Position numbers and translations under genes: made by a program. DNA of 64,000 nucleotides from Adhaeribacter swui (lineage in GTDB: Bacteria; Bacteroidota; Bacteroidia; Cytophagales; Hymenobacteraceae): contig NZ_CP055156.1 of NCBI RefSeq assembly GCF_014217805.1, positions 5,524,585-5,588,584 on the forward strand. The letters are read 5' to 3'. Each line of letters starts with the position of its first letter. Positions within the stretch are counted from its first letter, which is position 1. Positions 18,726-42,893 of this stretch are shown here, piece after piece. The notes under the pieces were generated by a model. It did no database searches. It was not told the origin of the DNA and saw only the letters and a list, made by a program, of their open reading frames with translations.

Positions 18726-20135
18726 ATGAATTATTTTTGGCGTAATATTTTACTTATTGGCTTTATTTCTCTGGTTGTTTTTACTGCTGCTGGCCAGAAC
18801 CGGCGGCAAAAAGTAGTGAGTTACCACGACTCTGTACGCACAGCCATTAAGCAAATTTACTATGTAGTACCGCCGGATACGGTACCCGAAGGCACCTACA
18901 AACGTTTTTACCGGAGCGGAAAACTCGAAGCCATTACCAGCTTTGTAAACGGCAAGCAAGACAGCGCCTACCTCGAATTTTATGAAAATGGTGCGAAGCG
19001 GGTTACGGTAAACTATAAAGATGGCTTACGGCAAGGTCTTTTTGAATCTTTTTACCCGAACGGTAAGCCGCTACAACAAGCCAATTATACCGACGATAAG
19101 CAAACCGGACCCATAAAAACGTTTTTTGAAAATGGTAATCCTAAAATGGAAGCCACCTTCGTCAATGGTTATCCGGAAGGTGAAGTAAAGGAGTATTTTC
19201 CGGAGGGTGGTTTACAATCCAGCATTACCTACGTAAAAAGCCAGCAAAGCGGCCCCGCCAAAACTTATTACCCGAATGGTAAATTAAAAACAGAAGCAAA
19301 CTATAAAAATGGTGTATTGGATGGGTATTATAAAACCTATTATGATAATGGCCAGCCCGAGTCGGAGGCTACCAACGAGGGCGGTAAACGCACCGGCGTT
19401 ACGCGTACTTATTACCGGTCGGGCAAGTTAAAATCCGAAACTAATTTTAAAACTGTTATTCTGGTAAAGCCTAAAGTCGTTACCCCGGATGGCCAGATAA
19501 ACAAAGAACGGGTACTTACCAAATTTAAAAATACCACCAGCCAACCCGATGGCCTGGCCCGCACCTATTACGAGAGTGGGCAAAAAATGAGTGAGATAAA
19601 TTATGTGAATGGTAAAATGGCGGGCACCGCGCAGTACTTTTACCCTAGCGGCAAGCTTAAACAAGAAATCCGCTACGCCAACGAAGAGAAAGACCGCAGG
19701 ATTACCACGTATTACGAATCCGGCAACGTACGCGAAGAGCAATTTTTTAAAAATAACGCCAAAACCGGCACCTGGAAAACCTTTTACGATGGCAAACAGC
19801 TAAGCCTGCAGGAAACTTACGAAAATGGGAAGTTAACCAAGGAGCGGCTAGCCTATTACCCAAACGGGCAGCTAAAAGAAAAAGCCACTTACGAAAACGG
19901 AAAAATAGTGGGAAAAGCTTTTACTTACCACGACAACGGCAAAGTACAGTCCGAAACCGAATACAAAAATGGTTTGAAAAACGGTCCTTTTAAACAATTT
20001 TACAGCTCCGGCGAACCCGAACTAACGGGCAATTACCGGTACAACCGGCAGATTGGCACCTGGAAACACTTTGATGAAGAAGGCAAAATAGTTAAACATA
20101 CCACCTACAAAAATGGCATTGCCGTAGCGGAATAG
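18726..20135 (+). CDS. Secreted MORN-repeat (YwqK-like) protein
   Basis: A 469-residue exported protein with a signal peptide (about 1-24, ending FTAAGQ). The mature protein is almost entirely MORN-variant repeats of about 22-24 residues, pattern G.YK.YYPNGKLK.EA.Y.NG (for example KTYYPNGKLKTEANYKNGVLDGYYKTYYDNGQPESEA is a two-repeat span; about 17 copies overall). Databases often label these as the antitoxin component YwqK, but there is no partner toxin here and the protein is exported, so I would not use that label. MORN sheets usually bind proteins or lipids. It is followed by a strong terminator and probably monocistronic. Confidence 0.82.
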   Translation: MNYFWRNILLIGFISLVVFTAAGQNRRQKVVSYHDSVRTAIKQIYYVVPPDTVPEGTYKRFYRSGKLEAITSFVNGKQDSAYLEFYENGAKRVTVNYKDGLRQGLFESFYPNGKPLQQANYTDDKQTGPIKTFFENGNPKMEATFVNGYPEGEVKEYFPEGGLQSSITYVKSQQSGPAKTYYPNGKLKTEANYKNGVLDGYYKTYYDNGQPESEATNEGGKRTGVTRTYYRSGKLKSETNFKTVILVKPKVVTPDGQINKERVLTKFKNTTSQPDGLARTYYESGQKMSEINYVNGKMAGTAQYFYPSGKLKQEIRYANEEKDRRITTYYESGNVREEQFFKNNAKTGTWKTFYDGKQLSLQETYENGKLTKERLAYYPNGQLKEKATYENGKIVGKAFTYHDNGKVQSETEYKNGLKNGPFKQFYSSGEPELTGNYRYNRQIGTWKHFDEEGKIVKHTTYKNGIAVAE

Positions 20136-27905: not shown

Positions 27906-28919
27906 TTAGCTAACCAGCAAATTACAACCCCGGATATCGGAATTATCGAACCGGCCGAGCACTTCAAAAGAATTATCCGGGTAAAGTTTACCAATGTCTT
28001 TGGTTTCAATAAAGGCGCAGGAATCTACATTGGCTAGGTCGATGATATTGATACCGCCAGTTTTTAACTCCGGATTTACATCAAAGGGATCGTTCATATC
28101 GCGTAGTAAAATTTGCATGGTACTGGGGCAGGTAAACAAACCTCTCTCGGTAGAATAAGCCTGCGACAATAACTCCGTCATGCCGTATTCCGAATGTATG
28201 GCATTTACCTCGAAGGCTGTTTGCAGTTGCGCGTGCAGTTCGGCCCGGATCATCTCCCGGCGCCGGCCTTTCATGCCCCCGGTTTCCATGATAATTACGT
28301 TTTTAAATAAATCCGTATAATTAAGAGCCTGCACAAGGTCAGCCAGGTCCAGCAACGCGTAGGTTACCCCAAACAACACCACTTTTTTACCGTTTACCTG
28401 AACCGGATCTAAAGCAGCAATCAAATCTTCGAGGTTATACAAAAAAAAGCCCGGCTTCGGCTGCCCGGATTTTTGCATAAAAAAATTTACCATTGCAACC
28501 AAAGACGAATTTCCTTGCTCTATATAAGAGGGAAGCAAAGCCAGAAAGAGGTAGTCGGTTAAAGGCCCGTATTGGTTTTCGAACAGGAGCTGCGTATTTT
28601 GCAGGTAAAACGGCAGATCGGCTAAAAAATGTTGGCTCCGTTCGTTCTGGGTAGTGCCGCTACTCAAGAAAGTGGTTTCGGGTATAAAATCGCCGGTTTT
28701 TACCGCTTGGGTCTTAAAAAACTCGATGGGTAAAAATGGAATTTTTTTAAAATTTTGAATTGTTGGCGGGTTTACACCCAATTGTTGAAGATAAATCCGG
28801 TAAACCGGATTATGGATAGCTTGGTAATGAAACAAATCTAAAGCTCTTTGCTCAAAATCAACTCCCTTGGTGGGCGCCTGAGTATGAAGCTTTTGTTTAA
28901 AATCTTGTTTAAAATTCAT
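27906..28919 (-). CDS. LuxE-like acyl-protein synthetase family
   Basis: A 337-residue member of the LuxE/acyl-protein synthetase (ANL-related) family. Signatures are IPFLPIEFFKTQAVKTG, the ATP-binding-type TFLSSGTTQNERSQHF, and a C-terminal part with YGMTELLSQAYS and GRFDNSDIRGCNLLV. LuxE activates fatty acids with ATP and holds them as a thioester before reduction. Here neither a LuxC reductase nor luciferase genes are present. Many Cytophagales carry this gene alone, and its role there is unknown to me; activation of a carboxylic acid is the conservative inference. It is divergent from the lipoprotein gene at 29090. Confidence 0.8.
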   Translation of the reverse strand: MNFKQDFKQKLHTQAPTKGVDFEQRALDLFHYQAIHNPVYRIYLQQLGVNPPTIQNFKKIPFLPIEFFKTQAVKTGDFIPETTFLSSGTTQNERSQHFLADLPFYLQNTQLLFENQYGPLTDYLFLALLPSYIEQGNSSLVAMVNFFMQKSGQPKPGFFLYNLEDLIAALDPVQVNGKKVVLFGVTYALLDLADLVQALNYTDLFKNVIIMETGGMKGRRREMIRAELHAQLQTAFEVNAIHSEYGMTELLSQAYSTERGLFTCPSTMQILLRDMNDPFDVNPELKTGGINIIDLANVDSCAFIETKDIGKLYPDNSFEVLGRFDNSDIRGCNLLVS

Positions 28920-30327: not shown

Positions 30328-31446
30328 ATGAAGAAAAAAGTTTTAATTACGGGCGGTGCTGGTTTTATCGGTTCGCACCTGGCCGATGAATTACTTAATT
30401 ACGGATACGAAGTTAGAGCCCTGGATAACCTCTCCGAACAGGTTCACGGGAAAGACTGCCAGCGTCCGGATTATTTAAACCCGCACGTAGAACTGATTGT
30501 GGGCGATGTACGCGATAAAAAAGTAGTATTGGAAGCTTTAGAAGGAGTTAGCGCCGTATTCCACTTTGCCGCCATGGTAGGCGTTGGGCAAAGCATGTAC
30601 GAAATCCGGGAATATACCGATGTAAATAATACCGGCACGGCCGTGTTGTTGGAATGCTTGTCGCAAAAACCGGTAGACAAACTGGTTGTGGCTTCCAGCA
30701 TGAGTATTTACGGCGAAGGTTTGTATAAAAATGCGCAAGGCGAAATAGTAGTTGGCACCGAACGGCCTTTAGAACAATTAAAAGCCGGCAAATGGGAAGT
30801 ATTGGACGAAAATGGCCAGGAACTCTCTCCTATTCCTACGGCCGAGTCTAAAACACCTTGTTTATCCTCGGTTTATGCCTTATCTAAATACGACCAGGAA
30901 CGCATGAGTTTACTCGTGGGCCGGGCTTATAACATCCCTACCGTTGCTATGCGCTTTTTTAACGTGTACGGCACGCGGCAAGCTTTATCTAACCCATATA
31001 CCGGTGTATTAGCTATATTCGCTTCCCGATTCCTGAACGATAACCCGCCCATGATTTTTGAAGACGGCCAGCAGCAACGCGATTTTGTGCACGTGCGCGA
31101 TGTGGCATTAGCTTGCCGCTTAGCCTTAGAAACGCCAGAAGCAAATGGGCAGGTATTCAACGTGGGCAGTGGTAATAATTACACCATTTCCGAAATTGCT
31201 GATCGTTTGGCGCAAGTATTAGGTAAAGAAGATTTAAAAGCCCAGATTACCGGCAAATACCGGGTAGGCGATATCCGCCATTGTTATTCCGATATTTCGT
31301 TAGCTCAGGAAGTTTTAGGTTTTTATCCGCAGGTAGATTTTAACAGTGGTTTATTAGAATTAGCGGAGTGGCTCGAAGGGCAAATTGCCCACGACCGGGT
31401 AAATGAAGCCAGCGCTGAATTAGCAGCCCGTGGTTTAACCGTTTAA
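30328..31446 (+). CDS. NAD-dependent sugar epimerase/dehydratase
   Basis: A 372-residue extended short-chain dehydrogenase. The N-terminus KVLITGGAGFIGSHLADELL is the NAD-binding GxxGxxG site. The Ser of VVASSMSIYGEG and the catalytic YALSK (SSVYALSKYDQE) complete the active site. RFFNVYG and RDFVHVRDVA mark the substrate domain of nucleotide-sugar epimerases. The insertion after the SSMS strand (about residues 130-180) recalls dTDP-L-rhamnose 4-epimerase-like enzymes, but specificity cannot be read here. It opens the saccharide cluster, followed by the glycosidase module 46 bp downstream. Confidence 0.88.
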   Translation: MKKKVLITGGAGFIGSHLADELLNYGYEVRALDNLSEQVHGKDCQRPDYLNPHVELIVGDVRDKKVVLEALEGVSAVFHFAAMVGVGQSMYEIREYTDVNNTGTAVLLECLSQKPVDKLVVASSMSIYGEGLYKNAQGEIVVGTERPLEQLKAGKWEVLDENGQELSPIPTAESKTPCLSSVYALSKYDQERMSLLVGRAYNIPTVAMRFFNVYGTRQALSNPYTGVLAIFASRFLNDNPPMIFEDGQQQRDFVHVRDVALACRLALETPEANGQVFNVGSGNNYTISEIADRLAQVLGKEDLKAQITGKYRVGDIRHCYSDISLAQEVLGFYPQVDFNSGLLELAEWLEGQIAHDRVNEASAELAARGLTV

Positions 31447-31492
31447 TGCCGGCTGTTTCTATCATCTGTTTTTTAAAAATCTGAACAATTAA

Positions 31493-32557
31493 ATGTTAAT
31501 GGATATACATTCTAATAATAATCTTAAAAATATGAACTGGCCGGTGGTTGGGATGGTAGAATGGTTTCGACCAGGGGAGCACAAACGGGTAGAAAAAGCA
31601 ATTGCTATTTTAAAAGAATTAGGAATTACTGAATTGCGCACCGGCATTTCCTGGACCGATTACCTTACTCCGGAAGGCAAAGAATGGTACAATTGGCTTA
31701 TTCCTATGCTGGCTAAAGAAGTAAACGTGTTGCCGTGTTTCCAGCACACACCGCCTTCTTTAGGAATTGTCCCCCGACGGACTTCCCCTTTAACCCGCCC
31801 CGAAGATTTTGCCAATTTTTTAGACGAGGTAATTACTCAACTGGGTGCTTCTTTCGAGTGGGTAGAACTGTGGGATGAGCCCAATAACAAAGCAGAATAC
31901 GATTATACGTTAGATGATAACTGGCACCGTTTTACCGAAATGATTGGCAAAGCGGCTGCCCGCGCCCAGCACCACGGCAAAAAGGTTATTTTGGGAGGCA
32001 TGTACCCCGTAGACCCTAATTGGTTACAACTTTTATTCGACCGGGGTGTGATGGAAAACATCCAGGCCGTAGGTATCCATGGTTTTCCGGAAGGGAATGA
32101 TCAAAATGGGGAAAGCTGGGAAGAAAACCTGAACAAAGTCCGCTTAATTTTAAAAAATAATAAATCCAACGCCCAAATCTGGATTACCGAAGCCGGTTTT
32201 TCTACCTGGCAGCACGACGAGTATCAGCAACTACAGGAATTCCGCAATGTCTTGCAGACCCAAGTTCCAAAAGTTTACTGGAGCAGCTTACTAGACCAGG
32301 ATCCGGAATTAACGGCTACCAACAACTATTACCCAAATGAGCGCGCCTGCTTTTTTGGTTTACAACGCCAAGACAACAGCCCTAAGTTATTGTACCGCTT
32401 GCTTGCCCAAAATGGCTTAAACGGTTTAAATAAACTTACCTGCATTACCCGCCAATCGAACTTTAACCCCACCGAAAAATACGCTTTAATTACCGGGGGG
32501 TGGGTTTTGTGGGCACTAACCTGGCCAAACGTTTACTGCAGGAAGGCAAGCGGGTAA
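31493..32557 (+). CDS. GH39-like glycosidase module of a broken fusion
   Basis: A 354-codon frame. Residues about 14-315 form a TIM-barrel glycosidase of clan A, closest by eye to GH39/beta-xylosidase types: LWDEPNN places the acid/base at Glu129 and WITEAGF the nucleophile at Glu233. There is no signal peptide, so it is cytoplasmic. From about residue 326 the protein reads YALITGG, the start of a Rossmann fold. The frame then slips at a G6 tract (32495-32500) into a meaningless tail (WVLWALTWPNVYCRKASG). With one extra G the frame would join the epimerase at 32500, giving a protein of about 687 residues. I judge the ORF to be the N-terminal half of a fusion disrupted by a frameshift or a sequencing error. 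Confidence 0.72.
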   Translation: MLMDIHSNNNLKNMNWPVVGMVEWFRPGEHKRVEKAIAILKELGITELRTGISWTDYLTPEGKEWYNWLIPMLAKEVNVLPCFQHTPPSLGIVPRRTSPLTRPEDFANFLDEVITQLGASFEWVELWDEPNNKAEYDYTLDDNWHRFTEMIGKAAARAQHHGKKVILGGMYPVDPNWLQLLFDRGVMENIQAVGIHGFPEGNDQNGESWEENLNKVRLILKNNKSNAQIWITEAGFSTWQHDEYQQLQEFRNVLQTQVPKVYWSSLLDQDPELTATNNYYPNERACFFGLQRQDNSPKLLYRLLAQNGLNGLNKLTCITRQSNFNPTEKYALITGGWVLWALTWPNVYCRKASG

Positions 32558-33555
32558 TGGTGCTGGATAATCTTTCGCGGCCGGGCGTAGAGCGTAACCT
32601 GCAATGGTTACACGATAACTACAACGAACGTTTAGAAATTTTCGTGGGTGATATCAGGGATTTAGCTACCGTTAAAAAGGTAATGAAAAACGCCGATCAG
32701 GTATTTCATTTTGCCGCCCAGGTAGCCGTTACTACTTCTTTGGATTACCCAATCAACGATTTTGAAATTAATGCCCGTGGCATCATTAACGTTTTAGAAG
32801 CCATTAGGGCGCAGGATAATCCGCCGCCTTTGGTGTTTACTTCTACCAACAAAGTATATGGCGGCTTAGAAGATTTATTGTTTATTGCAGATGGTTCGCG
32901 GTATAACCCTTCGGATAAAACGATCTTAAAACACGGTATCGGCGAAAGCCGGTCTTTGGATTTCCATAGCCCTTACGGTTGCTCCAAAGGCGCCGCCGAC
33001 CAGTACGTGGTGGATTATGCCCGCACGTATAACCTGCCAGCCGTAGTTTTCCGGATGAGCTGCATTTACGGTCCGCACCAGTACGGCAACGAGGACCAGG
33101 GTTGGGTAGCGCATTTTGCCATCCGGGCCATCGAAAACAAAGCTATCAGCATTTACGGTGATGGCAAACAAGTACGCGACGTGCTGTTTGTAGAAGATTT
33201 AGTAGATGCCTTTTTGTTAGCCCAAGAACACATGCCGCAAATCTCAGGTCAGGCTTTTAATATTGGCGGAGGTCCCGAAAATACCACCAGCTTGTTAGAA
33301 TTACTAGAGTTAATCGGGGAGTTTCAGGGTTCTAAAATTCCCTTACAATTCGGCGACTGGCGGCCTGGCGATCAGCATTATTACGTGTCGGATATCCGGA
33401 AATTTAAAAAAGCTACCGGCTGGTACCCGAAAAACTCCGTGCAGGAAGGTGTTGCTAAATTATACCGGTGGTTATGCGAAACCCGGGGCATTGAGTTACC
33501 CGCCGATTTTGCGCTGCCGGAAAAAAATAAAGTTTCAAAAGTTGCGATTGCTTAA
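32500..33555 (+). CDS. Epimerase module of the broken fusion
   Basis: A 351-codon frame encoding an extended short-chain dehydrogenase whose apparent start (MGFVGTNLAKRLLQEG) is inside the NAD-binding glycine motif; the missing LITGG lies in the frame of the upstream glycosidase. Other motifs are complete: VGDIRD, FHFAAQVAV, FTSTNKVYG, catalytic YGCSKG, RMSCIYGPHQYG, DVLFVEDLVDAF. This resembles CDP-paratose 2-epimerase/NAD-dependent epimerases with a TSTNKVYG strand. Independent translation from 32500 would lack the first beta strand, so activity on its own is doubtful. Its stop overlaps the next start as TAATG. Confidence 0.78.
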   Translation: MGFVGTNLAKRLLQEGKRVMVLDNLSRPGVERNLQWLHDNYNERLEIFVGDIRDLATVKKVMKNADQVFHFAAQVAVTTSLDYPINDFEINARGIINVLEAIRAQDNPPPLVFTSTNKVYGGLEDLLFIADGSRYNPSDKTILKHGIGESRSLDFHSPYGCSKGAADQYVVDYARTYNLPAVVFRMSCIYGPHQYGNEDQGWVAHFAIRAIENKAISIYGDGKQVRDVLFVEDLVDAFLLAQEHMPQISGQAFNIGGGPENTTSLLELLELIGEFQGSKIPLQFGDWRPGDQHYYVSDIRKFKKATGWYPKNSVQEGVAKLYRWLCETRGIELPADFALPEKNKVSKVAIA

Positions 33556-34562
33556 TGAATTCAGAATTAATTGCCATAACCGATTTACCCACAGAAAAAA
33601 CAACTACCATGCGGGCTGCTATTATAGAGGCACCGCAAAACATAAAAATAACGAACGTTACTTTACCCGAACCCGGCCCTACGCAAGTGCGGATTAAAAT
33701 GGAAGGTTGCGGCCTGTGTGCCTCCAACATACCGGTTTGGCAAGGGCGCGAGTGGTTTACGTACCCGGTAGCGGCCGGAAACCCCGGTCACGAAGGCTGG
33801 GGCTTTGTGGATGCCGTTGGCGCAGAAGTTACGCAGGTAAAAGTAGGTGACCGGGTTGCCGCCATTACTTATAATGCCTACGCCGAATACGATTTAGCCG
33901 AAGCAGATTCACTGGTAAAACTACCCGAAGCTTTTAATAGCATTCCGTTTCCGGGTGAGCCTTTGGGTTGCGCTATTAATATTTTTAAGCGGTCGGATAT
34001 TCAGGCGGGGCAAACGGTAGCTATTATTGGCATTGGTTTTTTAGGCGCTCTGTTAATTCAATTGGCAAAGCATGCGGGAGCCAGAGTAATTGCGCTTTCG
34101 CAACGCGATTTTTCATTAAAAATCGCCCAAGAATGCGGTGCCGATGAAATCATAAAACTGGATGATCACTGGCAAATAATCGAAAAAGTTAAAAATTTAA
34201 CCAACGGTACTTTTTGCCCCCGGGTAATTGAATGCACCGGTAAAGAATGGCCTTTAAACCTGGCCGGCGAACTTACCGCCGAACGCGGGAAACTCATAAT
34301 TGCGGGTTTTCACCAGGATGGTATGCGCTCCGTGAATGTGCAGTTGTGGAACTGGCGGGGATTAGATGTAATTAACGCCCACGAACGCGATCCGCAGATT
34401 TACCTGCAGGGCATGCGCGAAGCCGTAGAAGCGGTACTCAGTGGACGCATGAACCCGCAACCTTTATACACGCATACCTATCCTTTCGAAGAAATCGACC
34501 AGGCTTTCCAGGTTTTAGAAAATCGCCCGGACGGATTCATGAAAGCGCTTATCCAGTTCTAG
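33555..34562 (+). CDS. Zinc-type alcohol dehydrogenase (MDR) family
   Basis: Medium-chain dehydrogenase/reductase, 335 residues from 33555, where ATG overlaps the previous TAA (TAATG); an internal Met at 33609 (MRAAIIEAPQNI) is the more typical family start. The catalytic zinc ligands appear as Cys in GLCASNIPVW and His-Glu in GHEGWG. The structural-zinc four-Cys loop is absent. The NAD(P) site is IGIGFLGALLIQLAKHAGA. In this context it probably oxidises or reduces a hydroxyl on a sugar or polyol; this is an inference from the neighbours. Confidence 0.82.
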   Translation: MNSELIAITDLPTEKTTTMRAAIIEAPQNIKITNVTLPEPGPTQVRIKMEGCGLCASNIPVWQGREWFTYPVAAGNPGHEGWGFVDAVGAEVTQVKVGDRVAAITYNAYAEYDLAEADSLVKLPEAFNSIPFPGEPLGCAINIFKRSDIQAGQTVAIIGIGFLGALLIQLAKHAGARVIALSQRDFSLKIAQECGADEIIKLDDHWQIIEKVKNLTNGTFCPRVIECTGKEWPLNLAGELTAERGKLIIAGFHQDGMRSVNVQLWNWRGLDVINAHERDPQIYLQGMREAVEAVLSGRMNPQPLYTHTYPFEEIDQAFQVLENRPDGFMKALIQF

Positions 34563-34577
34563 AGACTAGCGGTGCTG

Positions 34578-34614
34578 CGATAAACGCTAAGTTTTTAAAA
34601 TTTTGCGTTTATCG
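34578..34614 (+). terminator. Hairpin within the saccharide cluster
   Basis: CGATAAACGC (34578-34587) pairs perfectly with GCGTTTATCG (34605-34614). The 17-nt loop contains TTTTTAAAATTTT. It sits 16 bp after the dehydrogenase stop and may attenuate or terminate transcription between the two halves of the cluster. Confidence 0.55.
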
Positions 34615-34754
34615 ATTCCGTTTAAGCCGGAAATTCTAAAATTATCCGGTAAGTATATCTGGTTCATTGATTATTTACTACCAACTCTTTCTTCATGCAA
34701 TGCCTGATAACCTTTTTATTTAGGCAAATGCTTTAGAAAGAAATAACAAGAAAC

Positions 34755-35795
34755 ATGCAACAAGATTCTCTTATAGATAAACATTCCCAAACAGATCTAA
34801 CCCCGAATGTCAACCCGCCAAAACTAGGTTTTCTGGGGGTAGGCTGGATTGGACGGAACCGCATGGAAGTAATTGCCCGGCACCAAGCTGGAGAAGTTAC
34901 TTTAATTTCGGACCCGGTTGCCAGCAATGTAGAAGAAGCCTTAAAATCGGCACCAGCCGCTCAAACTACTGCTTCCTTGGACGAGATGCTTACCAGCGAC
35001 TTGTATGCCGTAGTTATTGCCACCCCCAGCGCATTACACGCCGAACAAGCCATAGCGGCTTTAAACGCTGGTAAAGCCGTTTTCTGCCAAAAGCCTTTGG
35101 GCCGCAATCAAACAGAAACACAAAACGTGGTAGAAGCAGCGCGTGCGGCTAATAAACTGTTGGGCGTGGATTTATCGTACCGGTTTACTCAAGCCATGCA
35201 GGAAGTTTACCGGGTAATTCAATCCGGTGAATTAGGGACTATTTACGGCGTGGAGTTAACTTTTCATAATGCCTATGGCCCGGATAAACCCTGGTTTTAC
35301 GACCCAAAATTATCCGGTGGTGGTTGCGTAATCGACCTGGGTGTGCACCTGGTGGATTTGGCGCTGTGGTGTTTGAATTTCCCGGAGGTAAAAACCGTTA
35401 CCAGTAGTTTGTACAGTAAAGGACAACCCTTAACCTCGCCAGAAGACCAGGTAGAAGATTACGCAACGGCTAGCATTCAATTACAAAGCGGAGCAAACGT
35501 GCAGCTTACCTGCTCCTGGAACTTACCCGCCGGTCAGGAAGCAATTATTAGCGCGGTATTTTATGGCACGCAAGGCGGGGTAGCTTTTAAAAACACCAAT
35601 GGCTCGTTCTACGATTTTACCGCAGAGCGTTACTACGGTACCCGCACCGAAACCTTGTGTTTCCCACCGGATGATTGGTCGGGCCGCGCGGGAGTTGTAT
35701 GGGCCAACCGGGTAGCCGCCGGCGAACAATTTAATTCCGAAGCTGAAGAATTTGTAAAAGTAGCGGAAGTATTGGATAAAATTTATGGAAGATAG
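34755..35795 (+). CDS. Gfo/Idh/MocA family oxidoreductase
   Basis: NAD(P)-dependent sugar oxidoreductase, 346 residues. The Rossmann domain has LGFLGVGWIGRNRM (residues about 25-38), then VVIATPSALHAEQAIAALNAGKAVFCQKPLGRN, where the conserved Lys of the EKP-type motif is in QKP. The C-terminal alpha/beta domain shows GGGCVIDLGVHLVDLALW, with the catalytic-type Asp-x-x-x-His. Members oxidise ring hydroxyls of sugars, inositols or UDP-sugars. Only 3 bp separate its stop from the GT4 gene, so they are co-translated. About 190 bp and a hairpin precede it. Confidence 0.87.
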   Translation: MQQDSLIDKHSQTDLTPNVNPPKLGFLGVGWIGRNRMEVIARHQAGEVTLISDPVASNVEEALKSAPAAQTTASLDEMLTSDLYAVVIATPSALHAEQAIAALNAGKAVFCQKPLGRNQTETQNVVEAARAANKLLGVDLSYRFTQAMQEVYRVIQSGELGTIYGVELTFHNAYGPDKPWFYDPKLSGGGCVIDLGVHLVDLALWCLNFPEVKTVTSSLYSKGQPLTSPEDQVEDYATASIQLQSGANVQLTCSWNLPAGQEAIISAVFYGTQGGVAFKNTNGSFYDFTAERYYGTRTETLCFPPDDWSGRAGVVWANRVAAGEQFNSEAEEFVKVAEVLDKIYGR

Positions 35796-35798
35796 TAG

Positions 35799-36884
35799 AT
35801 GAACCAAGCCGGCAAGCCATTAAAACTTTTATTAACCGCCGATACCGTCGGCGGCGTGTGGACCTATGCCCTCGATTTAATAAAAGCTCTGGCTCCGTAC
35901 GGCACCCAAATCGCGCTGGCTACTATGGGCGCTTTCCTGTCGCCGTTGCAATACGAACAAATCAAATCTTTATCCAACGTAGTTCTCTACGAAAGCAATT
36001 ACAAGCTGGAGTGGATGGAGAACCCCTGGGAAGAAGTAACTGCGGCCGGCGAATGGCTCCTGAAAATCAACCAGGAATTTAAGCCCGACCTGATTCACTT
36101 AAACAATTTGGTACACGGTAATTTAAACTGGGGAAAACCGGTAATACAGGTGGTTCATTCCTGCGTGCAGTCGTGGTGGCAAGGCGTTAAAAAAGAAGCG
36201 GCCCCCGAAAGCTGGCTCACTTACCGCCACCAGGTTACACAAAGTTTACGTGCCGCGCAAGTGGTGGTGGCTCCCACCCTGACCATGCTGGAAGAAGCCG
36301 AAACTTTGTATGGCCCTTTTCATAACCATTTGGTAATTCATAATGGCCGCGATTTAGGTTTATTCCGGTATGCTTCGAAAGAGCCTTTTATTTTTAGCAT
36401 GGGGCGGTTGTGGGACGAAGCCAAAAACATAACGCTTCTAACCCAGGTAGCCGCCGAATTAAGCTGGCCCGTACTGATTGCCGGGAACGCCCAACATCCC
36501 GTAACCGGCAAAATTTTAAAATTTCCGAATGTGCAGTTCCTGGGCCATTTAGGGTACGCCGCTATTGCAGATTATTTAAGTAGGGCTTCCATTTTTGCTT
36601 TGCCGGCCAAGTATGAACCATTCGGCTTATCGGCCTTAGAAGCCGGCTTATCAGGCTGCGCCTTGGTGCTGGGCAACATTCCGAGCCAAAAAGAAATCTG
36701 GCAGCATACCGCTACTTACGTTGATCCGAATAATGCGGAACAACTCAAAACCACTTTATCGAAACTAATCGAGGATGAGTTTATCCGGAATATTTTTAGC
36801 TATCGGGCATTAAACGTGGCCCAGCAGTACAGTGCCGAACAAATGGCATCGGAGTACCTGGATTTATACCAGCAACTCTTGTAA
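35799..36884 (+). CDS. Glycosyltransferase family 4 protein
   Basis: A 361-residue GT-B glycosyltransferase. N-terminal domain: LLLTADTVGGVWTYALDLIKAL. C-terminal donor-binding domain: FSMGRLWDEAKNITLL, and the GT4 signature EPFGLSALEAGLSGCALVLGN, whose Glu residues bind the nucleotide sugar. No membrane segment, so it acts in the cytoplasm. It follows the oxidoreductase by 3 bp. Donor and acceptor are unknown. Confidence 0.9.
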   Translation: MNQAGKPLKLLLTADTVGGVWTYALDLIKALAPYGTQIALATMGAFLSPLQYEQIKSLSNVVLYESNYKLEWMENPWEEVTAAGEWLLKINQEFKPDLIHLNNLVHGNLNWGKPVIQVVHSCVQSWWQGVKKEAAPESWLTYRHQVTQSLRAAQVVVAPTLTMLEEAETLYGPFHNHLVIHNGRDLGLFRYASKEPFIFSMGRLWDEAKNITLLTQVAAELSWPVLIAGNAQHPVTGKILKFPNVQFLGHLGYAAIADYLSRASIFALPAKYEPFGLSALEAGLSGCALVLGNIPSQKEIWQHTATYVDPNNAEQLKTTLSKLIEDEFIRNIFSYRALNVAQQYSAEQMASEYLDLYQQLL

Positions 36885-36927
36885 GAGAGGTAAATTTTTA
36901 AAAATTCAGCTTTAATTTAACATAATA

Positions 36928-38067
36928 ATGAAAATAGTTCTCTTCTACCATTCCCTGCTTTCTGACTGGAACCACGGGAATGCGCATTTTTTAAGAGGCA
37001 TCGTGCAGGAGTTAAAAGTGAGAGGCCACGAAGTGCAAGTTTACGAGCCCGAAAATGGCTGGAGTCTGCAGAATTTAGTGAATGAATACGGACCCGAAAA
37101 ATTAAACGAACTGCACAGCTATTATCCAGGCTTGGCCACCAACTTCTATAATCTGGATACGCTTAAACTGGATTCGGTTTTATTAAACGCGGATTTGGTG
37201 CTGGTGCACGAGTGGAACGATCATGAGCTGGTAAAACGCATTGGCGAACACCGGATAGGTAAAAATTACAAATTGCTTTTCCACGATACCCACCACCGCG
37301 CTGTAACCGAAAAAAGCAGCATGGCCGCCTACGATTTATCGCACTACGATGGCGTATTGGCTTTTGGTGAAGTGATCAAGAATATTTACCTGCAGGAACA
37401 ATGGACGCAAAAAGCCTGGACCTGGCACGAAGCCGCCGATGATTCGGTGTTTTACCCGCGTACGAAAACTGAACTACAAGGCGATTTGGTTTGGATCGGG
37501 AACTGGGGCGATGAAGAACGTACCGCCGAGCTGCACGAATTTTTAATAAATCCAGTGAAAGAACTAGGTTTAAAAGCGAAAATTTACGGGGTCCGTTACC
37601 CGGAGCACGCCTTAAAATCTTTAGCCGATGCGGGTATTGAATACGGCGGCTGGTTACCCAACTACAAAGCGCCCGAAGAGTTTGCCAAATACAAAGTAAC
37701 CGTACACGTGCCACGTCGACCTTACGTGGAGGCTTTACCCGGCATTCCTACCATCCGGCCCTTTGAAGCTTTAAGTTGCGGTATTCCTTTAATAACAGCG
37801 CCCTGGGAAGATGCCGAAAACTTATTCACGCCCGGTCAGGATTTTCTGGTAGCGCAAAACGGCGAAGAAATGAAACAGCATTTAAGAACCGTACTTTCCG
37901 ACGAAAACAAAGCCGGCGCGTTAGTGGCACAAGGCTTAAAAACCATTAACCAGCGGCATACCTGCGCGCACCGGGTAAATGAATTAGAAATTATCTGCGG
38001 AGAGCTGGGCATTGATTCTGCTAAAATATTGGGCAACAAAAAAGAACAAAACTTACATGCAAAATAA
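36928..38067 (+). CDS. CgeB-like glycosyltransferase (copy 1)
   Basis: A 379-residue GT-B-fold protein with the N-terminal pattern KIVLFYHSLLSDWNHGNAHFLRGIVQELKVRGHEVQVYEPE shared in shorter form by the next two genes. The C-terminal half has KVTVHVPRRPYVEALPGIPTIRPFEALSCGIPLITAPWEDAENLF, the CgeB/GT1-like donor-site region. It is soluble. First of three tandem paralogs; its 3' end overlaps the next start by 11 bp. CgeB is known as a spore-coat glycosylation protein in Bacillus; here only the fold and family are claimed. Confidence 0.82.
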   Translation: MKIVLFYHSLLSDWNHGNAHFLRGIVQELKVRGHEVQVYEPENGWSLQNLVNEYGPEKLNELHSYYPGLATNFYNLDTLKLDSVLLNADLVLVHEWNDHELVKRIGEHRIGKNYKLLFHDTHHRAVTEKSSMAAYDLSHYDGVLAFGEVIKNIYLQEQWTQKAWTWHEAADDSVFYPRTKTELQGDLVWIGNWGDEERTAELHEFLINPVKELGLKAKIYGVRYPEHALKSLADAGIEYGGWLPNYKAPEEFAKYKVTVHVPRRPYVEALPGIPTIRPFEALSCGIPLITAPWEDAENLFTPGQDFLVAQNGEEMKQHLRTVLSDENKAGALVAQGLKTINQRHTCAHRVNELEIICGELGIDSAKILGNKKEQNLHAK

Positions 38068-39166
38068 GAAAAATTTAAAAATTGCTTTTTTTGGTTCCAG
38101 CCTGGTGTCGGCTTATTGGAACGGAGCGGCCACGTATTACCGGGGCATTGTGCGGGCTTTACACCAACGTGGCCATGAGGTTACTTTTTACGAACCAGAT
38201 GCCTACCAGCGTCAGGAAAACCGCGATATGCCCGACCCGGATTGGGCCAAAGTGGTGGTTTATCCCGCTACCGAAGAAGCCGTGTTACAAGCCCTGGAAG
38301 ATGCCACTCACGCGGATATTGTAGTAAAAGCCAGCGGAGTTGGTGTTTTTGACGAGTTGCTGGAAGCTGAAGTTTTAAAATTACAAACGCCCGACCGGAC
38401 TGTTATTTTCTGGGACGTAGATGCGCCGGCCACCCTGGACCGCGTGCAGCACAACCCGCAAGACTCTTTCCGGAACCATATTCCGCAGTACGATTTAATT
38501 TTAACGTATGGCGGCGGCGAACCGGTAATCCAAGCCTACGAAGCTTTAGGCGCCAAACAATGCGTACCTATTTATAATGCTTTAGATACCGCTACCCATT
38601 TTCCGGTAGAACCTAATCCAAAATTTGCCTGCGACTTAGCTTTTCTGGGTAACCGCTTGCCCGACCGCGAAGCCCGGGTAGAACAATTCTTTTTAGATGT
38701 GGCCGCCAAATGTCCGGAGCAAACCTTTATGATTGGCGGTAGTGGCTGGGGCGATAAGCCGATGAGCCCTAACGTAAAATACATTGGCCACGTGTTTACT
38801 CAGGATCATAATGCCTTTAACTGCACGCCCAAAGCGGTTTTAAATATCAGCCGCGAAAGCATGGCCCGTTATGGCTTCTCGCCGGCAACCCGGGTATTTG
38901 AAGCAGCCGGCGCCGCCGCTTGCATTATTACCGATTATTGGGAAGGTATTGATTTCTTTTTTGAACCCGGCACCGAAATCCTAGTAGCCCGAGATGGCGA
39001 CGAAGTAGCCCAGATTATGGCCGGTTTAACAGAAGAAAAAGCAAAATCCATTGGTGAAGCCGCTTATAAAAAAGTTTTAGCTGCCCATACCTACGACCAT
39101 CGTGCCGACCAGTTAGACCAACTGCTTTTCAGCAAAATAAGTAAAAAAGCCGGGGAGTTAGTATGA
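38057..39166 (+). CDS. CgeB-like glycosyltransferase (copy 2)
   Basis: A 369-residue protein. I start at 38057 (MQNKKNLKIAFFGSSLVSAY), overlapping copy 1 by 11 bp; a frame from 38012 would add 15 residues within the previous gene. It has an N-terminal GT-B domain with YRGIVRALHQRGHEVTFYEPD, the middle ILTYGGGEPVIQAYEALGAK, a WGDKPMSPNVKYIGHV strand, and a C-terminal FSPATRVFEAAGAAACIITDYWEGIDFFFEPGTEILVA donor-site block. Tandem paralog of copies 1 and 3. Confidence 0.84.
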   Translation: MQNKKNLKIAFFGSSLVSAYWNGAATYYRGIVRALHQRGHEVTFYEPDAYQRQENRDMPDPDWAKVVVYPATEEAVLQALEDATHADIVVKASGVGVFDELLEAEVLKLQTPDRTVIFWDVDAPATLDRVQHNPQDSFRNHIPQYDLILTYGGGEPVIQAYEALGAKQCVPIYNALDTATHFPVEPNPKFACDLAFLGNRLPDREARVEQFFLDVAAKCPEQTFMIGGSGWGDKPMSPNVKYIGHVFTQDHNAFNCTPKAVLNISRESMARYGFSPATRVFEAAGAAACIITDYWEGIDFFFEPGTEILVARDGDEVAQIMAGLTEEKAKSIGEAAYKKVLAAHTYDHRADQLDQLLFSKISKKAGELV

Positions 39167-40245
39167 AGCAGGAATCCTTAAACATTGTTATTCTGGGTTT
39201 ATCCATTACTTCGTCCTGGGGAAATGGTCACGCTACTACGTTCCGGGGTTTGGTGCGCGAACTGGCTAACCGCGGGCATCGGGTTTTGTTTCTGGAAAGA
39301 GATGTGCCGTGGTACGCTTCCAGCCGCGATTTACCTAACCCGGGTTATTGCGACACGCAATTGTATACCTCCCTGGATGATCTGCAAACCCGGTTTACCG
39401 AACAAGTACGCGAAGCCGATTTTGTAATGGTAGGTTCTTACGTTCCGGAAGGCGTAGCGGTCGGGCAATGGGTCATTAATACCGCGCAAGGCATTAAAGC
39501 TTTTTACGATATCGACACGCCGGTTACTTTAGCTAAACTGGAACGCCAGGATTACGAGTATTTGCATCCGCGGCTCATTCCGCAGTACGATTTATATTTA
39601 TCCTTTACAGGCGGACCAACGTTAGATTTACTCGAACAAAAATATGGTTCGCCCAAAGCCCGGCCATTGTACTGTTCTTTCGATCCGGATTTGTATTTCC
39701 CGGAATTGCAGGAGTTAAAATGGGACCTGGGTTATTTAGGAACTTACAGCGACGACCGGCAACCGCCTTTAGAAAAATTAATGCTGGATGCCGCCCGCGC
39801 CTGGCCGGAAGGCAAGTTTGTAGTGGCCGGCCCGCAGTACCCCGAAACCATTCAGTGGCCCGCCAACACGCAATACATCCATCATTTGCCGCCCGCGGAG
39901 CACCGGAAGTTTTACAACAGCCAACGCTTTACCCAAAATATTACGCGGGTAGATATGATTAAAGCGGGTTATTCCCCTAGCGTTCGTTTGTTTGAAGCGG
40001 CCGCTTGCGGTACGCCCATTATCAGCGATTATTGGAATGGCCTGGACTCAATTTTTAAATTTGAATCCGAAATCCTGGTTTCTTACTCCGCCGCCGATAC
40101 TTTGCGGTTTTTAAAGGAAATTTCAGAACCGGAAAGAAAAGCCATTGGCGAAAAAGCCCGGCAAAAAGTTTTAGTGCAGCATACCGCGGCGCACCGGGCT
40201 TTAGAAGTAGAACAATACATCCGGGAATACAAGATTTTAGCTTAA
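39163..40245 (+). CDS. CgeB-like glycosyltransferase (copy 3)
   Basis: A 360-residue paralog of copy 2, starting in an ATGA overlap with it. It has NIVILGLSITSSWGNGHATTFRGLVRELANRGHRVLFLERD at the N-terminus, LYLSFTGGPTLDLLEQKYG in the middle, and SPSVRLFEAAACGTPIISDYWNGLDSIFKFESEILV at the C-terminus. No membrane helix. A very long hairpin directly after its stop (40253-40313) suggests the operon ends or is attenuated here. Confidence 0.84.
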   Translation: MKQESLNIVILGLSITSSWGNGHATTFRGLVRELANRGHRVLFLERDVPWYASSRDLPNPGYCDTQLYTSLDDLQTRFTEQVREADFVMVGSYVPEGVAVGQWVINTAQGIKAFYDIDTPVTLAKLERQDYEYLHPRLIPQYDLYLSFTGGPTLDLLEQKYGSPKARPLYCSFDPDLYFPELQELKWDLGYLGTYSDDRQPPLEKLMLDAARAWPEGKFVVAGPQYPETIQWPANTQYIHHLPPAEHRKFYNSQRFTQNITRVDMIKAGYSPSVRLFEAAACGTPIISDYWNGLDSIFKFESEILVSYSAADTLRFLKEISEPERKAIGEKARQKVLVQHTAAHRALEVEQYIREYKILA

Positions 40246-40252
40246 GCAAACC

Positions 40253-40313
40253 AATGTAAGTAGCTCCGAAAAGCAAATTTTTAAAAATTTCGTTTTTCGG
40301 AGCTGCTTACATT
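40253..40313 (+). terminator. 61-bp hairpin with AT palindrome core
   Basis: The outer arms AATGTAAG (40253-40260) and CTTACATT, then AGCTCCGAAAA with TTTTCGGAGCT, pair almost perfectly. The centre is the 16-bp perfect palindrome AAATTTTTAAAAATTT (40275-40290). Only one mismatched position and a small internal bulge interrupt about 30 bp of pairing. It begins 8 bp after the third CgeB-like gene. A terminator or 3' stabilising structure is likely. Confidence 0.7.
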
Positions 40314-40504
40314 TACCATTAACTGCCTTTTACTTTATTTTTCCGGAAAACGTCTTATTGCTACCGGTGCTATAAAACAGAAGCTTTTGGCTAATGGCTA
40401 AGCTTTCCTCAAAATGCTTTTTTTTAATAATTAAAAAGAAAATTACATAACATAACCTCTTACCAAAGAGTATACCCACACAACAAAATTTAGCTTAAAT
40501 ATTC

Positions 40505-41323
40505 ATGAGTACGTTGCAGCAGGAAATTGAACAACTAGGTCCGTGGTTTCATAATATTCACTTACCCGATGGTACTCAAACCGCGCCCCACCACACGCTG
40601 GGTGACTTTCCGGCTTTTAAATGGAAAGACATTGCGCCCTCCATTCCCGAAGATTTAAGCGGCTGGAACGTGCTGGATGTGGGCTGTAATGCGGGTTATT
40701 ACACCTTGCAATTAGCCCAAAGAGGGGCGCAGGTTCTGGCCATTGATATAGACCCACATTACTTAAAACAAGGTACCTGGGTGGCCAAACAGTTCAACCT
40801 AAGTCATCAAATTGAGTTCCGGCAAATGCAGGTGTACGATGTGGTAAAGCTGGAACAAAGCTTTGATTTAATCTGGTACATGGGCGTGCTGTATCATTTG
40901 CGGTATCCTTTGCTTTCTTTGGACATCCTTTCCCAAAAATTAAAGCGGCTCATGGTTTTTCAAACCTTAACCATGCCGGGCGAAGAAGTGGCCGAGATAC
41001 CTTACGATTTAGATTTTAATGCCCGCGAAAAAATGCAGCAAGATGGCTGGCCCAAAATGGCGTTTATCGAAAACCGGCTCGCCGGCGATGTCACCAACTG
41101 GTGGGCGCCCAACCACGCGGGCATTGAGGCCATGCTGCGCTCCTGCGGTTTAAAAGTTACCCAACGCCCCGCCCACGAAATTTACCTCTGCGAACCCGAT
41201 CCCGATAACAACAAAAGTGTCCATTCCTGGAACAGCTCCGAGTATTTATCGGCAACCGGGCAAAACTGGTCCGAAGCCGTAAAAGAAAAAGTTACCCACA
41301 AAAACCGGACATTAACTTCGTAA
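40505..41323 (+). CDS. TIGR04290-type methyltransferase
   Basis: A 272-residue SAM-dependent methyltransferase. Motif I is VLDVGCNAGYYTLQLAQRG (about residues 56-74), followed by IDIDPHYL and FDLIWYMGVLYHLRYPLLSLD, a layout like CmoB. The family-specific block is NWWAPNHAGIEAMLRSCGLKV near the C-terminus. I recognise it as the glycosyltransferase-associated methyltransferase family (TIGR04290), in agreement with its position next to four glycosyltransferases. A sugar or lipid-linked glycan is the probable substrate. The family assignment is from memory and needs an HMM check. Confidence 0.78.
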   Translation: MSTLQQEIEQLGPWFHNIHLPDGTQTAPHHTLGDFPAFKWKDIAPSIPEDLSGWNVLDVGCNAGYYTLQLAQRGAQVLAIDIDPHYLKQGTWVAKQFNLSHQIEFRQMQVYDVVKLEQSFDLIWYMGVLYHLRYPLLSLDILSQKLKRLMVFQTLTMPGEEVAEIPYDLDFNAREKMQQDGWPKMAFIENRLAGDVTNWWAPNHAGIEAMLRSCGLKVTQRPAHEIYLCEPDPDNNKSVHSWNSSEYLSATGQNWSEAVKEKVTHKNRTLTS

Positions 41324-41450
41324 TTAAATTAAAACGGTTAACCCCGCCTTAGGCTTAAACCGAGATAAGGCTAATTTTTTAAAAATTTACATTTCTGAGT
41401 AGTACGTAATTCTGGAGTAGCAGCGTAGCCGATAGGTAATAATTTTCAAA

Positions 41451-42893
41451 ATGTTAGATTACGAAGTAAAAGTGAAGCCCGGGGAAAAACAGGTAAGCCT
41501 GCCCTGGATTCAGGTAGCACCGAATGCCCCGTATTTTATTACCGAAACCGGCGAAAACTGGACGCCCATTGGTCAGAACGATGCGATTACCTGGCCGGAT
41601 TTTGCCGGTTTATTCCGCCGGAAAGATTATGGCGCCGTAGAAAACCATTTGGCTTATTTAGTAGACCATGGCGTAAACTGCTTACGGTTTATGCTGGAAT
41701 ACGCCCAAACCGAGAACCGCTACCTCGAAAAACCGGTAGGCAAGTTTCAGCCGAACATGCTCAAGTTGTGGGACGATTTATTTGCACTTTGCGAAAAATA
41801 CAGCTTACGCATTCTGCTCACGCCTTACGATACTTTTTGGATGTGGATCCGCTGGAAACATCATCCTTATAATAAAGCAAACGGTGGACCCTGCGCCAAA
41901 CGGTCGCGGTGGTTGTTGTGCCCGGATACGCTGCATGCCATTAAAAACCGATTAACATTTGCCGCAGAGCGTTGGGGCCGCAGTGGCGCTTTGTTTGCCT
42001 GGGATTTGTGGAACGAAATTCACCCGGCACACGCCGAAAATAACACGGAAGTTTTTTACCAGTTTATTCAGGAAATAAGCACCCATTTGCGCGAAGTGGA
42101 AATGGGTTTGTACGGCCGCACGCACTTGCAAACCGTTTCCCTATTCGGGCCGGTTTTGTACGAGCATCCGGCCGTAGCCGATGTTATTTTCCGGCACCCG
42201 CAACTCGATTTTGCTACTACCCATTTTTACGATGCCAAAACCATTAATCACCCGAAAGATACCGTAAACTCGGCCATTTGCACGGGAGCTTTGGTGCGGG
42301 AAGCCCTAGAACATTTACATCAGCCCAAACCTTTTTTTGATAGTGAACACGGACCGATTCACAATTTTAAAGATTTGCGAAAAACCTTGCCCGATGATTT
42401 TGACGATGAGTACTTCCGGCACATTCAATGGTCACACCTGGCATCGGGGGCAGCTGGCGGTGGTATGCGCTGGCCCAACCGCCACCCGCACGTACTTACG
42501 CCGGGCATGCGCGTAGCTCAATCCAGCTTAGCTAAGTTTGCGCAACTTATTAACTGGTCTACCTTTAAACGCCAAAACCTGAATCAGGAAATAAAAATAT
42601 CTTCTCCGGCCTTTGCCAAATTTGGCTGTGCCGACGACAAGCAAGCAATTGTGTATTTATTGCGCCAGGATAAACGCGATAAAAAGAAGATGGTAGATAG
42701 AACTGCCCCCGCTATTCCGGTTACTGTTTCGGTGCCGGACTTACAACCTGGTTCTTACCAAGTATTTTTCTGGAAAACGCAAGAAGGTTTTTTACTATCG
42801 CAGCAAGTAGTAGAAGTAAAACAAAGCCAAGAACTTACATTGGAAATTCCGCCTATTGTTACGGATATCGCCGTAGCCATTAAGCAGATTTAA
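41451..42893 (+). CDS. GH5-like intracellular glycoside hydrolase
   Basis: A 480-residue clan-A (TIM barrel) protein without signal peptide. The barrel covers about 25-380: LVDHGVNCLRFMLEY, RILLTPYDTFW, the acid/base in WDLWNEIHP (Glu189), the FATTHFYD strand, and a probable nucleophile in FDSEHGP (Glu299). Residues about 390-480 form a beta-sandwich-like tail (VTVSVPDLQPGSYQVFFWKT). By eye it fits GH5/cellulase-superfamily proteins. The cytoplasmic location beside glycosyltransferases suggests trimming, transglycosylation or turnover of the product rather than polymer degradation. It is the last gene of the cluster. Confidence 0.75.
   Translation: MLDYEVKVKPGEKQVSLPWIQVAPNAPYFITETGENWTPIGQNDAITWPDFAGLFRRKDYGAVENHLAYLVDHGVNCLRFMLEYAQTENRYLEKPVGKFQPNMLKLWDDLFALCEKYSLRILLTPYDTFWMWIRWKHHPYNKANGGPCAKRSRWLLCPDTLHAIKNRLTFAAERWGRSGALFAWDLWNEIHPAHAENNTEVFYQFIQEISTHLREVEMGLYGRTHLQTVSLFGPVLYEHPAVADVIFRHPQLDFATTHFYDAKTINHPKDTVNSAICTGALVREALEHLHQPKPFFDSEHGPIHNFKDLRKTLPDDFDDEYFRHIQWSHLASGAAGGGMRWPNRHPHVLTPGMRVAQSSLAKFAQLINWSTFKRQNLNQEIKISSPAFAKFGCADDKQAIVYLLRQDKRDKKKMVDRTAPAIPVTVSVPDLQPGSYQVFFWKTQEGFLLSQQVVEVKQSQELTLEIPPIVTDIAVAIKQI

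Follow-up and report, generated by a model that had tools for sequence, protein, structure and literature searches.

We examined a 64,000-nucleotide stretch of the Adhaeribacter swui genome (contig NZ_CP055156.1, positions 5,524,585 to 5,588,584), hereafter the window, and a cluster of eleven open reading frames (ORFs), A to K, within it. We propose tentatively, at somewhat less than an even chance, that the cluster encodes one conserved cytosolic pathway leading to a small, soluble, methylated inositol oligosaccharide, perhaps a stress protectant. The observations that carry this proposal are the co-conservation and constant order of the genes, the lack of a recurring exporter nearby, the residue pattern of gene C, the mutual exclusion of gene D and a radical-SAM enzyme, and the association and linkage of the cluster with an inositol-phosphate synthase and a phosphatase. 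A gene set so large and so constant across phyla must make something useful.

The eleven plus-strand ORFs stand in series from 30328 to 42893, in agreement with the ten or eleven genes in 12.5 kb of an initial annotation made from the window alone. The many gene overlaps it described are seen, as overlaps or near-zero gaps, at the C/D, E/F, G/H and H/I junctions. Scans with Pfam and NCBIfam models bore out the enzyme families it had listed: two nucleoside diphosphate (NDP)-sugar epimerase modules, an MDR dehydrogenase, a Gfo/Idh/MocA oxidoreductase, a GT4 glycosyltransferase, three PF13524 glycosyltransferases (called CgeB-type by the initial annotation and by us, a name that is not the model's own) and a TIGR04290 methyltransferase. 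B and K match no Pfam model. The parts are as follows.

30328..31446, plus strand: A, extended-SDR NDP-sugar 4-epimerase-like; 79-96% identity to those near-relative copies that are whole or truncated just by the end of the stretch
31493..32491, plus strand: B, glycosidase-fold (TIM-barrel) domain, PslG-like in its predicted structure; N-terminal half of a fused gene
32495..32500, plus strand: run of six G that breaks the fused B-C frame, found by comparison with relatives
32500..33555, plus strand: C, C-terminal half of the fused gene; TyvE-like NDP-sugar 2-epimerase, judged from residues compared across 67 sequences
33555..34562, plus strand: D, MDR (zinc-alcohol-dehydrogenase type) oxidoreductase by family scan
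34755..35795, plus strand: E, Gfo/Idh/MocA oxidoreductase; closest to IolG among NCBIfam models (below cut-off) and to DgpA among solved structures
35799..36884, plus strand: F, GT4 glycosyltransferase by family scan
36928..38067, plus strand: G, CgeB-type glycosyltransferase 1 (PF13524)
38057..39166, plus strand: H, CgeB-type glycosyltransferase 2 (PF13524), GT-B fold in its predicted structure
39163..40245, plus strand: I, CgeB-type glycosyltransferase 3 (PF13524)
40505..41323, plus strand: J, TIGR04290 family methyltransferase
41451..42893, plus strand: K, glycosidase-like, accessory; weak PDB matches

Judged by its score of 343.8 bits against the NCBI curated cut-off of 300, J is a true member of TIGR04290.

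The conservation of the cluster was examined in two sets of genomes. The window genome (G000) has three contigs, is rated 100% complete and carries the window on contig C3; the nearest named relatives of its gene H are in Adhaeribacter rhizoryzae and A. aerolatus (Hymenobacteraceae). The near-relative set consists of 59 genomes, 16 with TIGR04290 over its cut-off (here called cluster-bearing) and 43 others. The 16 all belong to one family and include all eight genomes of the window's genus. The neighbourhoods of all TIGR04290-bearing relatives other than the window, 15 in total, show the same gene order as far as each stretch goes, with inserts in some copies (for example 4-6 kb between I and J in three) and with K missing from five. 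One Pontibacter genome (G030; locus L034, 3684-11828) holds a decayed copy in which the start of A is fused into mid-D, B and C are gone, G is split and J has a stop, which shows that the cluster is dispensable in one lineage.

For the wider set, one genome per species was scanned with H, and the best 80 of at least 567 relatives were viewed with 10 kb on each side. With contig ends scored as misses, the companions of H were detected as follows in these 80 loci: G and I in 78 each, F in 75, A in 63, J in 62, D in 59, E in 56 and K in 9. Every detected gene among A and C to J has the same order and strand in 75 of the 80, and 40 loci have all nine; J alone is moved or inverted in four of the exceptions, and D and E are moved in the fifth. 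Since order and strand are kept in 75 loci, the cluster is not a chance assembly, and the search for the same gene order in other genomes that the initial annotation had proposed is answered in its favor. The hosts fall into 13 groups at phylum level (12-13 phyla). One locus (L075) is on a contig binned as Williamsia (Actinomycetota) that sits inside the Bacteroidota by cluster type and is probably mis-binned. Among the hosts are Kastovskya, Symplocastrum, Mojavia, Dyadobacter crusticola and Ramlibacter, which we take to be biocrust, desert or soil isolates.

The cluster is also found on plasmids. Relatives of H occur in 148 plasmid records, mostly from Sinorhizobium and Rhizobium but also from Roseomonas, Paracoccus and Azospirillum, and relatives of J in 163, some of which are probably other methyltransferases. 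The three records that were read all have the cluster. Xanthomonas sacchari keeps the same order; in Rhizobium etli and Sinorhizobium meliloti, D and E are reversed and I is separated from J by a UDP-xylose-synthase-like gene. The G, H and I homologues of S. meliloti 1021, a laboratory strain, lie on pSymB at about 244-248 kb.

We explored the possibility that an exporter is encoded with the cluster. Outside its core, 33 gene families recur in at least four of the 80 neighbourhoods, and a representative of each was scanned with Pfam. Flippases, polymerases, ABC-2 permeases and initiating transferases are absent from the 33, five of which have no match; one family, present at four loci and mostly at the far edge, is an ABC ATPase. 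We also collected ORFs in every frame with at least six predicted membrane spans. The 80 loci contain 20 of these: two inside the cluster span (both Nramp); eight within 3 kb (two MFS, two formate/nitrite, one CLC, one amino-acid permease, one of the AI-2E type and one unmatched); and ten farther away (four permeases of binding-protein importers, AcrB, a histidine kinase, DUF308, a PIG-V-type mannosyltransferase, NrsF and one unscanned). The 19 that were scanned include nothing like Wzx, Wzy or ABC-2, and the twentieth (L071, 17665-19032) shares its strand with a scanned ORF that it overlaps in a different frame. As a positive control, the eight Wzx-family proteins of this genome were measured in this way, and all of them have 7-11 spans.

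Those eight proteins are encoded about 600 kb or more from the cluster and at least 180 kb from its companion locus, described below. The window itself has one transporter-like membrane ORF, of the Atg22/MFS type, at 53895-55205, 11 kb downstream of the cluster, and the ORFs beside the S. meliloti cluster were read by eye as an ABC sugar importer, not an exporter. The absence of Wzx, Wzy, ABC exporter and initiating transferase reported for the window thus extends to the 80 loci as far as recurring genes are concerned, and the cytoplasmic product deduced from it is probable. As for genes outside the window, the survey turned up the distant Wzx-family proteins, and an exporter that is of the MFS type or coded far away may yet serve the cluster. 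The initial annotation had named two findings that would speak against it, namely homologous clusters always adjoining Wzx/Wzy or ABC export genes and genes that are not conserved together; neither was observed.

The near-relative set shows a link to inositol. Inositol-phosphate synthase (PF01658) is present in 13 of the 16 cluster-bearing genomes and in 5 of the 43 others (p = 8.6e-7), or in 6 of 8 against 5 of 43 outside the window's genus (p = 6e-4), all of these being genomes that are kin. Of the 22 synthase loci, 21 were read and that of G007 was left out. They include a subgroup of ten, nine of which adjoin a histidine phosphatase and none of which has a CDP-alcohol phosphatidyltransferase beside it. 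The phosphatidyltransferase is found at eight of nine other synthase loci, with a PgpA-like gene in the ninth; two more loci are of other kinds. The phosphatase-context subgroup occurs in 10 of the 16 cluster-bearing genomes and in none of the 43 others (p = 1.3e-7; outside the genus 4 of 8 against 0 of 43, p = 2.8e-4). A careful tree groups the ten with the synthase of Segetibacter (94/74, below the star threshold) and separates them from the lipid-context ones. Two genomes (G012 and G029) hold both kinds. Inositol-lipid gene sets, with a synthase, a CDP-alcohol phosphatidyltransferase and mostly a PgpA-like gene, were seen at Hymenobacteraceae loci L142-L144 and L147-L151, apart from the cluster-type synthase.

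The cluster-type synthase is in some cases physically linked to the cluster. It lies upstream of A in G003 and G005, with no gene of any size in between, and beside K in G012 and G029. Among the 80 loci, a synthase (of two subfamilies) is within 10 kb in 12, the phosphatase in 15 and both in 7; hosts with a synthase near the cluster include Ramlibacter, Variovorax, another comamonad and Verrucomicrobia. In S. meliloti, a synthase, a histidine phosphatase and a B-like gene follow behind D and E. The cluster-type synthase of the window genome lies far from the cluster, at 588515-589843 of contig C3. In this companion locus (L133, 366-5844), an FrhB-type protein and a polysaccharide pyruvyl transferase are encoded on one strand and the phosphatase and synthase on the other. 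Relatives of all four companion genes are inside the cluster neighbourhood in Segetibacter (L073). The dedicated synthase favors a soluble inositol glycoside among the products initially considered (a small glycoside, a glycolipid head group or a glycosylated protein), and this range is narrowed without being settled.

B and C form a single open frame of about 685 residues in all ten near relatives in which both halves are visible. In the window, the frame slips at the run of six G (32495-32500), where the ten relatives read ITGGAGFVG unbroken, and the ORFs 31493-32557 and 32500-33555 are one split gene. Since both halves are still open and conserved, the slip is either a recent mutation or an assembly error. 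As the near relatives have one fused gene, the idea that glycosidase and epimerase are natively separate here was rejected. Among the named loci with a plus-strand C, a B-like sequence lies upstream in the open frame of C in 48 of 66 and is absent in 18.

A structure model of B built from 27 sequences (pLDDT 82.5) has PslG of Pseudomonas aeruginosa as its top three PDB matches (5bx9, 4zn2 and 9g17; E 3e-16 to 2.5e-15), with a TM-score on the query of 0.66-0.70 and a predicted (beta/alpha)8 fold; a sequence search of B against solved structures gave nothing useful. PslG is a GH39-type enzyme that is exported to the periplasm. B is only 18-20% identical to it and, unlike PslG, is usually fused to an epimerase, has no obvious secretion signal (by eye, a hydrophobic stretch is not apparent at the N-terminus of the window copy) and has often lost a presumed catalytic glutamate. 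The presumed pair, Glu129 and Glu233, assigned by motif without superposition, is present in the window and complete in 17 of 27 aligned sequences, with one or both residues lost in the other 10; hydrolysis therefore cannot be a constant duty of B. In 19 of the 80 loci there is another relative of B, with 60% identity or more to the free-standing copy at L104. For K, weak matches are a DUF5060 protein (E 2e-7) and a GH5-type mannanase (E 0.002). K is 63-81% identical to the window copy in the 10 Hymenobacteraceae aligned, is present in 10 of the 15 near relatives and lies within 10 kb in only the 9 wider loci counted above, and we regard it as accessory. The two cytoplasmic glycosidases of the initial annotation were therefore overstated, one being a glycosidase-fold module that is mostly part of an epimerase gene and often lacks a presumed catalytic glutamate, the other an accessory gene.

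The closest solved relatives of C are CDP-tyvelose 2-epimerases (9rl0, E 1.6e-82; 1orr, E 3.7e-82), with the next match at 1e-35. C aligns over nearly its full length with TaTyvE of Thermodesulfatator atlanticus (PDB 9RL0) and keeps most of the cytidine diphosphate (CDP) contacts listed in the portions of PMC13098431 and PMC7851689 that were available. With the residue lists from these portions, the window and 66 loci (67 sequences) were compared. The catalytic triad Thr124, Tyr164 and Lys168 and the TNK segment (Thr124, Asn125, Lys126) are invariant in all 67, as are Val83, Ala84, Asp204, Gln205, Trp207, Phe211, Gln235, Arg237 and Arg299. The cytidine contacts are incomplete: Trp210 is replaced by His in 66 sequences and Asn in one, and Met85 by Val in all 67. 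On this pattern, C belongs to the TyvE type as a putative 2-epimerase with an altered base site, the activity expected of the type being C-2 epimerisation of CDP-paratose or CDP-glucose. It differs from TyvE further in its usual fusion to a glycosidase-fold domain and in its setting, as a cytidylyltransferase or dideoxyhexose gene was not seen in the window cluster. CDP-glucose from a canonical cytidylyltransferase was considered as the substrate of C and rejected, since that enzyme is not associated with the cluster and none scores over the cut-off in this genome; the CDP-glucose donor thus lacks support.

D and E appear to alternate with another enzyme. Eleven of the 80 loci have a B12-binding radical-SAM gene of the TIGR04295 type, and none of them has D as well; the single one scored reaches 740 bits, above the cut-off of 400. 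The 63 loci with A divide into 50 with D and E, 3 with D alone, 8 with the radical-SAM gene but without D or E, and 2 with none of these; no locus combines both (Fisher p = 1.2e-8). A quick tree of H, many branches of which are weak, implies at least five changes between the D/E and radical-SAM states. Either both systems perform one shared step or each marks a product type of its own. E is similar to glycoside 3-dehydrogenases, and a 3-keto-disaccharide-hydrolase-like gene (PF06439) is near the cluster in seven Hymenobacteraceae loci (e.g. L044, 15789-16670), between I and J where checked. These likenesses hint at 3-keto chemistry, with E as a glycoside 3-dehydrogenase.

Among solved chains, F comes nearest to the sucrose-phosphate synthase 6kih and to 2r60, each a weak match (E 7e-7). 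The structure model of H (pLDDT 90.1) has a GT-B fold whose nearest neighbour is BshA, with a methylmannose-polysaccharide mannosyltransferase, a tetrahydrobiopterin glucosyltransferase, sucrose-phosphate synthase and MshA also matched; a sequence search of H against solved structures returned chance antibody matches alone and no solved relative. By analogy, the likenesses of F and H fit soluble acceptors but fall short of proof.

Taken together, these observations lead us to infer the following reactions, product and role, as the simplest route that accounts for them. The dedicated synthase, coded outside the window here, would make myo-inositol phosphate, to which F may add the first sugar as MshA or sucrose-phosphate synthase do. 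The histidine phosphatase would then take the phosphate off the glycosyl-inositol phosphate. G, H and I are proposed to lengthen the chain with NDP-donor sugars remodelled by A, the 4-epimerase-like enzyme, and by the TyvE-like C. D and E, or the B12 radical-SAM enzyme in their place, would make a redox or stereochemical change on a ring, J would add a methyl group, and a pyruvyl group may be contributed by the pyruvyl transferase encoded next to the synthase. The B domain could trim or hold the chain without being an obligatory hydrolase. The product would stay in the cell, most likely as a protectant under dry or starving conditions. A bolder form of this proposal, which we consider doubtful, is that the product represents a new class of pseudo-oligosaccharide built on inositol, which bacteria of about a dozen phyla, largely from soil and drylands, would use as an internal protectant like the galactinol and raffinose sugars of plant seeds, one step being performed interchangeably by the MDR and Gfo pair or a B12 radical-SAM enzyme.

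It is also conceivable, though unlikely, that the cluster builds a glycolipid head group, such as a glycosylated and methylated phosphatidylinositol, on the inner face of the membrane, where a nearby flippase is unneeded. PimB' is among the structural matches of H (rank 22), and the operons of relatives do pair another synthase paralogue with a CDP-alcohol phosphatidyltransferase, both kinds of synthase coexisting in the two genomes mentioned above. However, the phosphatidyltransferase adjoins none of the ten cluster-linked synthases, against eight of nine for the other paralogue, and is absent from the 33 recurring neighbour families. The lack of this enzyme beside the dedicated synthase weakens the lipid explanation, although its inositol could still feed a lipid. 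We consider it quite unlikely that the genes form an ordinary cell-surface polysaccharide cluster, with its initiating transferase and its flippase, polymerase or ABC exporter coded elsewhere. Epimerases, GT4 and CgeB-type transferases are typical of surface polysaccharide clusters, a polysaccharide pyruvyl transferase accompanies the companion genes, the genome has eight Wzx-family proteins, and B resembles PslG of an exopolysaccharide system. Yet the genes of polysaccharide export systems usually travel together, and the absence of Wzx, Wzy, ABC-2 exporter and initiating transferase as recurring neighbours in the 80 loci weakens this explanation as well.

A role in glycosylating a cytoplasmic protein, or in making a glycosylated cofactor or a mycothiol-like low-molecular-weight thiol, seems improbable. 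BshA and MshA, the former nearest to H in fold and the latter also high, are the first transferases of bacillithiol and mycothiol, and a start from inositol phosphate follows the logic of mycothiol. Nevertheless, GT4 folds are common to many pathways, and a cysteine ligase is not among the 28 of 33 recurring families that Pfam could name, mycothiol genes not having been searched for directly.

Returning to the soluble inositol oligosaccharide, several observations weigh against it. MFS genes are within 3 kb in 2 of the 80 loci, and the window has its Atg22/MFS-like gene 11 kb away. A polysaccharide-deacetylase-like gene recurs near the cluster in four Hymenobacteraceae loci, the 3-keto-disaccharide-hydrolase-like gene recurs in seven, and GT-B folds are also used for lipid-linked glycans. 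The p-values for the synthase are not independent, as the compared genomes are kin. The cluster-type synthase was not shown in 6 of the 16 cluster-bearing genomes: G004, G009 and G018 have no PF01658 match, G030 and G033 have the other type only, and G007 is the unread one. Synthase and phosphatase are unlinked to the cluster in this genome and several relatives, and just 12 of the 80 named loci have a synthase within 10 kb. Glucose-1-phosphate cytidylyltransferase is not commoner with the cluster (7 of 16 against 18 of 43, p = 1), none being over the cut-off in this genome. The link to drought stands on host names, taken without a background comparison.

The proposed logic is that of the mycothiol and sucrose-phosphate routes, in which a sugar is put onto a phosphorylated acceptor and the phosphate is then removed, all in soluble form. 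In those routes MshA or sucrose-phosphate synthase acts before a phosphatase, and mycothiol further requires the MshB deacetylase, the MshC ligase and the MshD acetyltransferase. The present cluster differs in that F is similar at the superfamily level only and in having several more transferases and a predicted methyl, perhaps also a pyruvyl, decoration. With Wzx/Wzy or ABC-dependent polysaccharide clusters it has epimerases, GT4 and CgeB-type transferases in common, but unlike in those, flippase, polymerase, ABC-2 exporter and initiating transferase are not conserved with it. It is also distinct from a phosphatidylinositol operon, where the CDP-alcohol phosphatidyltransferase stands beside the synthase, an arrangement seen for 0 of the 10 cluster-type synthases.

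The cluster had been called undescribed. This holds for the searchable papers: full text queried with the two NCBIfam names, the locus name, CgeB in combination with inositol, and SMb numbers near the S. meliloti cluster yielded nothing on it, most subscription papers being unsearchable, and the literature on biocrust or desiccation and on inositol-phosphate synthase with pyruvyl transferase gave nothing useful. It does not hold for the databases, as NCBI curators already model two members, TIGR04290 and TIGR04295 (short name B12_rSAM_oligo), in NCBIfam without an assigned function. These models describe single proteins; the cluster, the inositol link and the enzyme exchange go beyond them. 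Glycoside pathways as a kind are known; this particular one has no match within the searchable literature. We considered whether the nutrient-deprivation (ndi) locus of S. meliloti is the cluster and did not adopt this. SMb20231, a sugar-binding protein according to the available part of PMC12542648, is apparently the ORF at about 236 kb, and the cluster begins beyond it, at about 242 kb; the parts of PMC2651895 and PMC4237140 available concern ndi genes only. In Rhodospirillum centenum, the inositol-1-phosphate synthase RC1_0768 rises 4-8 fold late in encystment, as stated in the accessible part of PMC4340629.

The inositol link, the missing exporter and the dehydrogenase/radical-SAM exchange pose a concrete metabolomics question in bacteria that are genetically tractable and can be cultured, such as S. 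meliloti. If the proposal is true, it would give a function to TIGR04290, TIGR04295 and CgeB-type transferases that, like H, have no solved sequence relative, and it would provide a natural setting for TyvE-like 2-epimerases outside dideoxyhexose pathways.

Some further features were noted around the cluster. A promoter and terminator scan was uninformative, with 19 promoter-like sites against 19.8 expected and 13 terminator-like sites against 21.1 expected. The flanking genes that were scanned (ORFs past 51189 fall mostly outside the scan) seem unrelated, consisting of housekeeping genes, regulators and secreted proteins. A short-chain dehydrogenase family occurs in 28 of the 80 loci, mostly directly upstream of A (L027, L028, L029, L034), a position at which the window shows none. 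A Pycsar-effector-type membrane protein (PycTM) lies near the cluster in six Hymenobacteraceae loci (L050, 18285-18872, and relatives) and is probably unrelated. Upstream of the cluster, on the minus strand at 27906-28919, is a solitary ORF that weakly matches (31 bits) a LuxE-like acyl-protein synthetase. The window also encodes, at 18726-20135, a protein made mostly of MORN-variant repeats (236 bits in PF07661).

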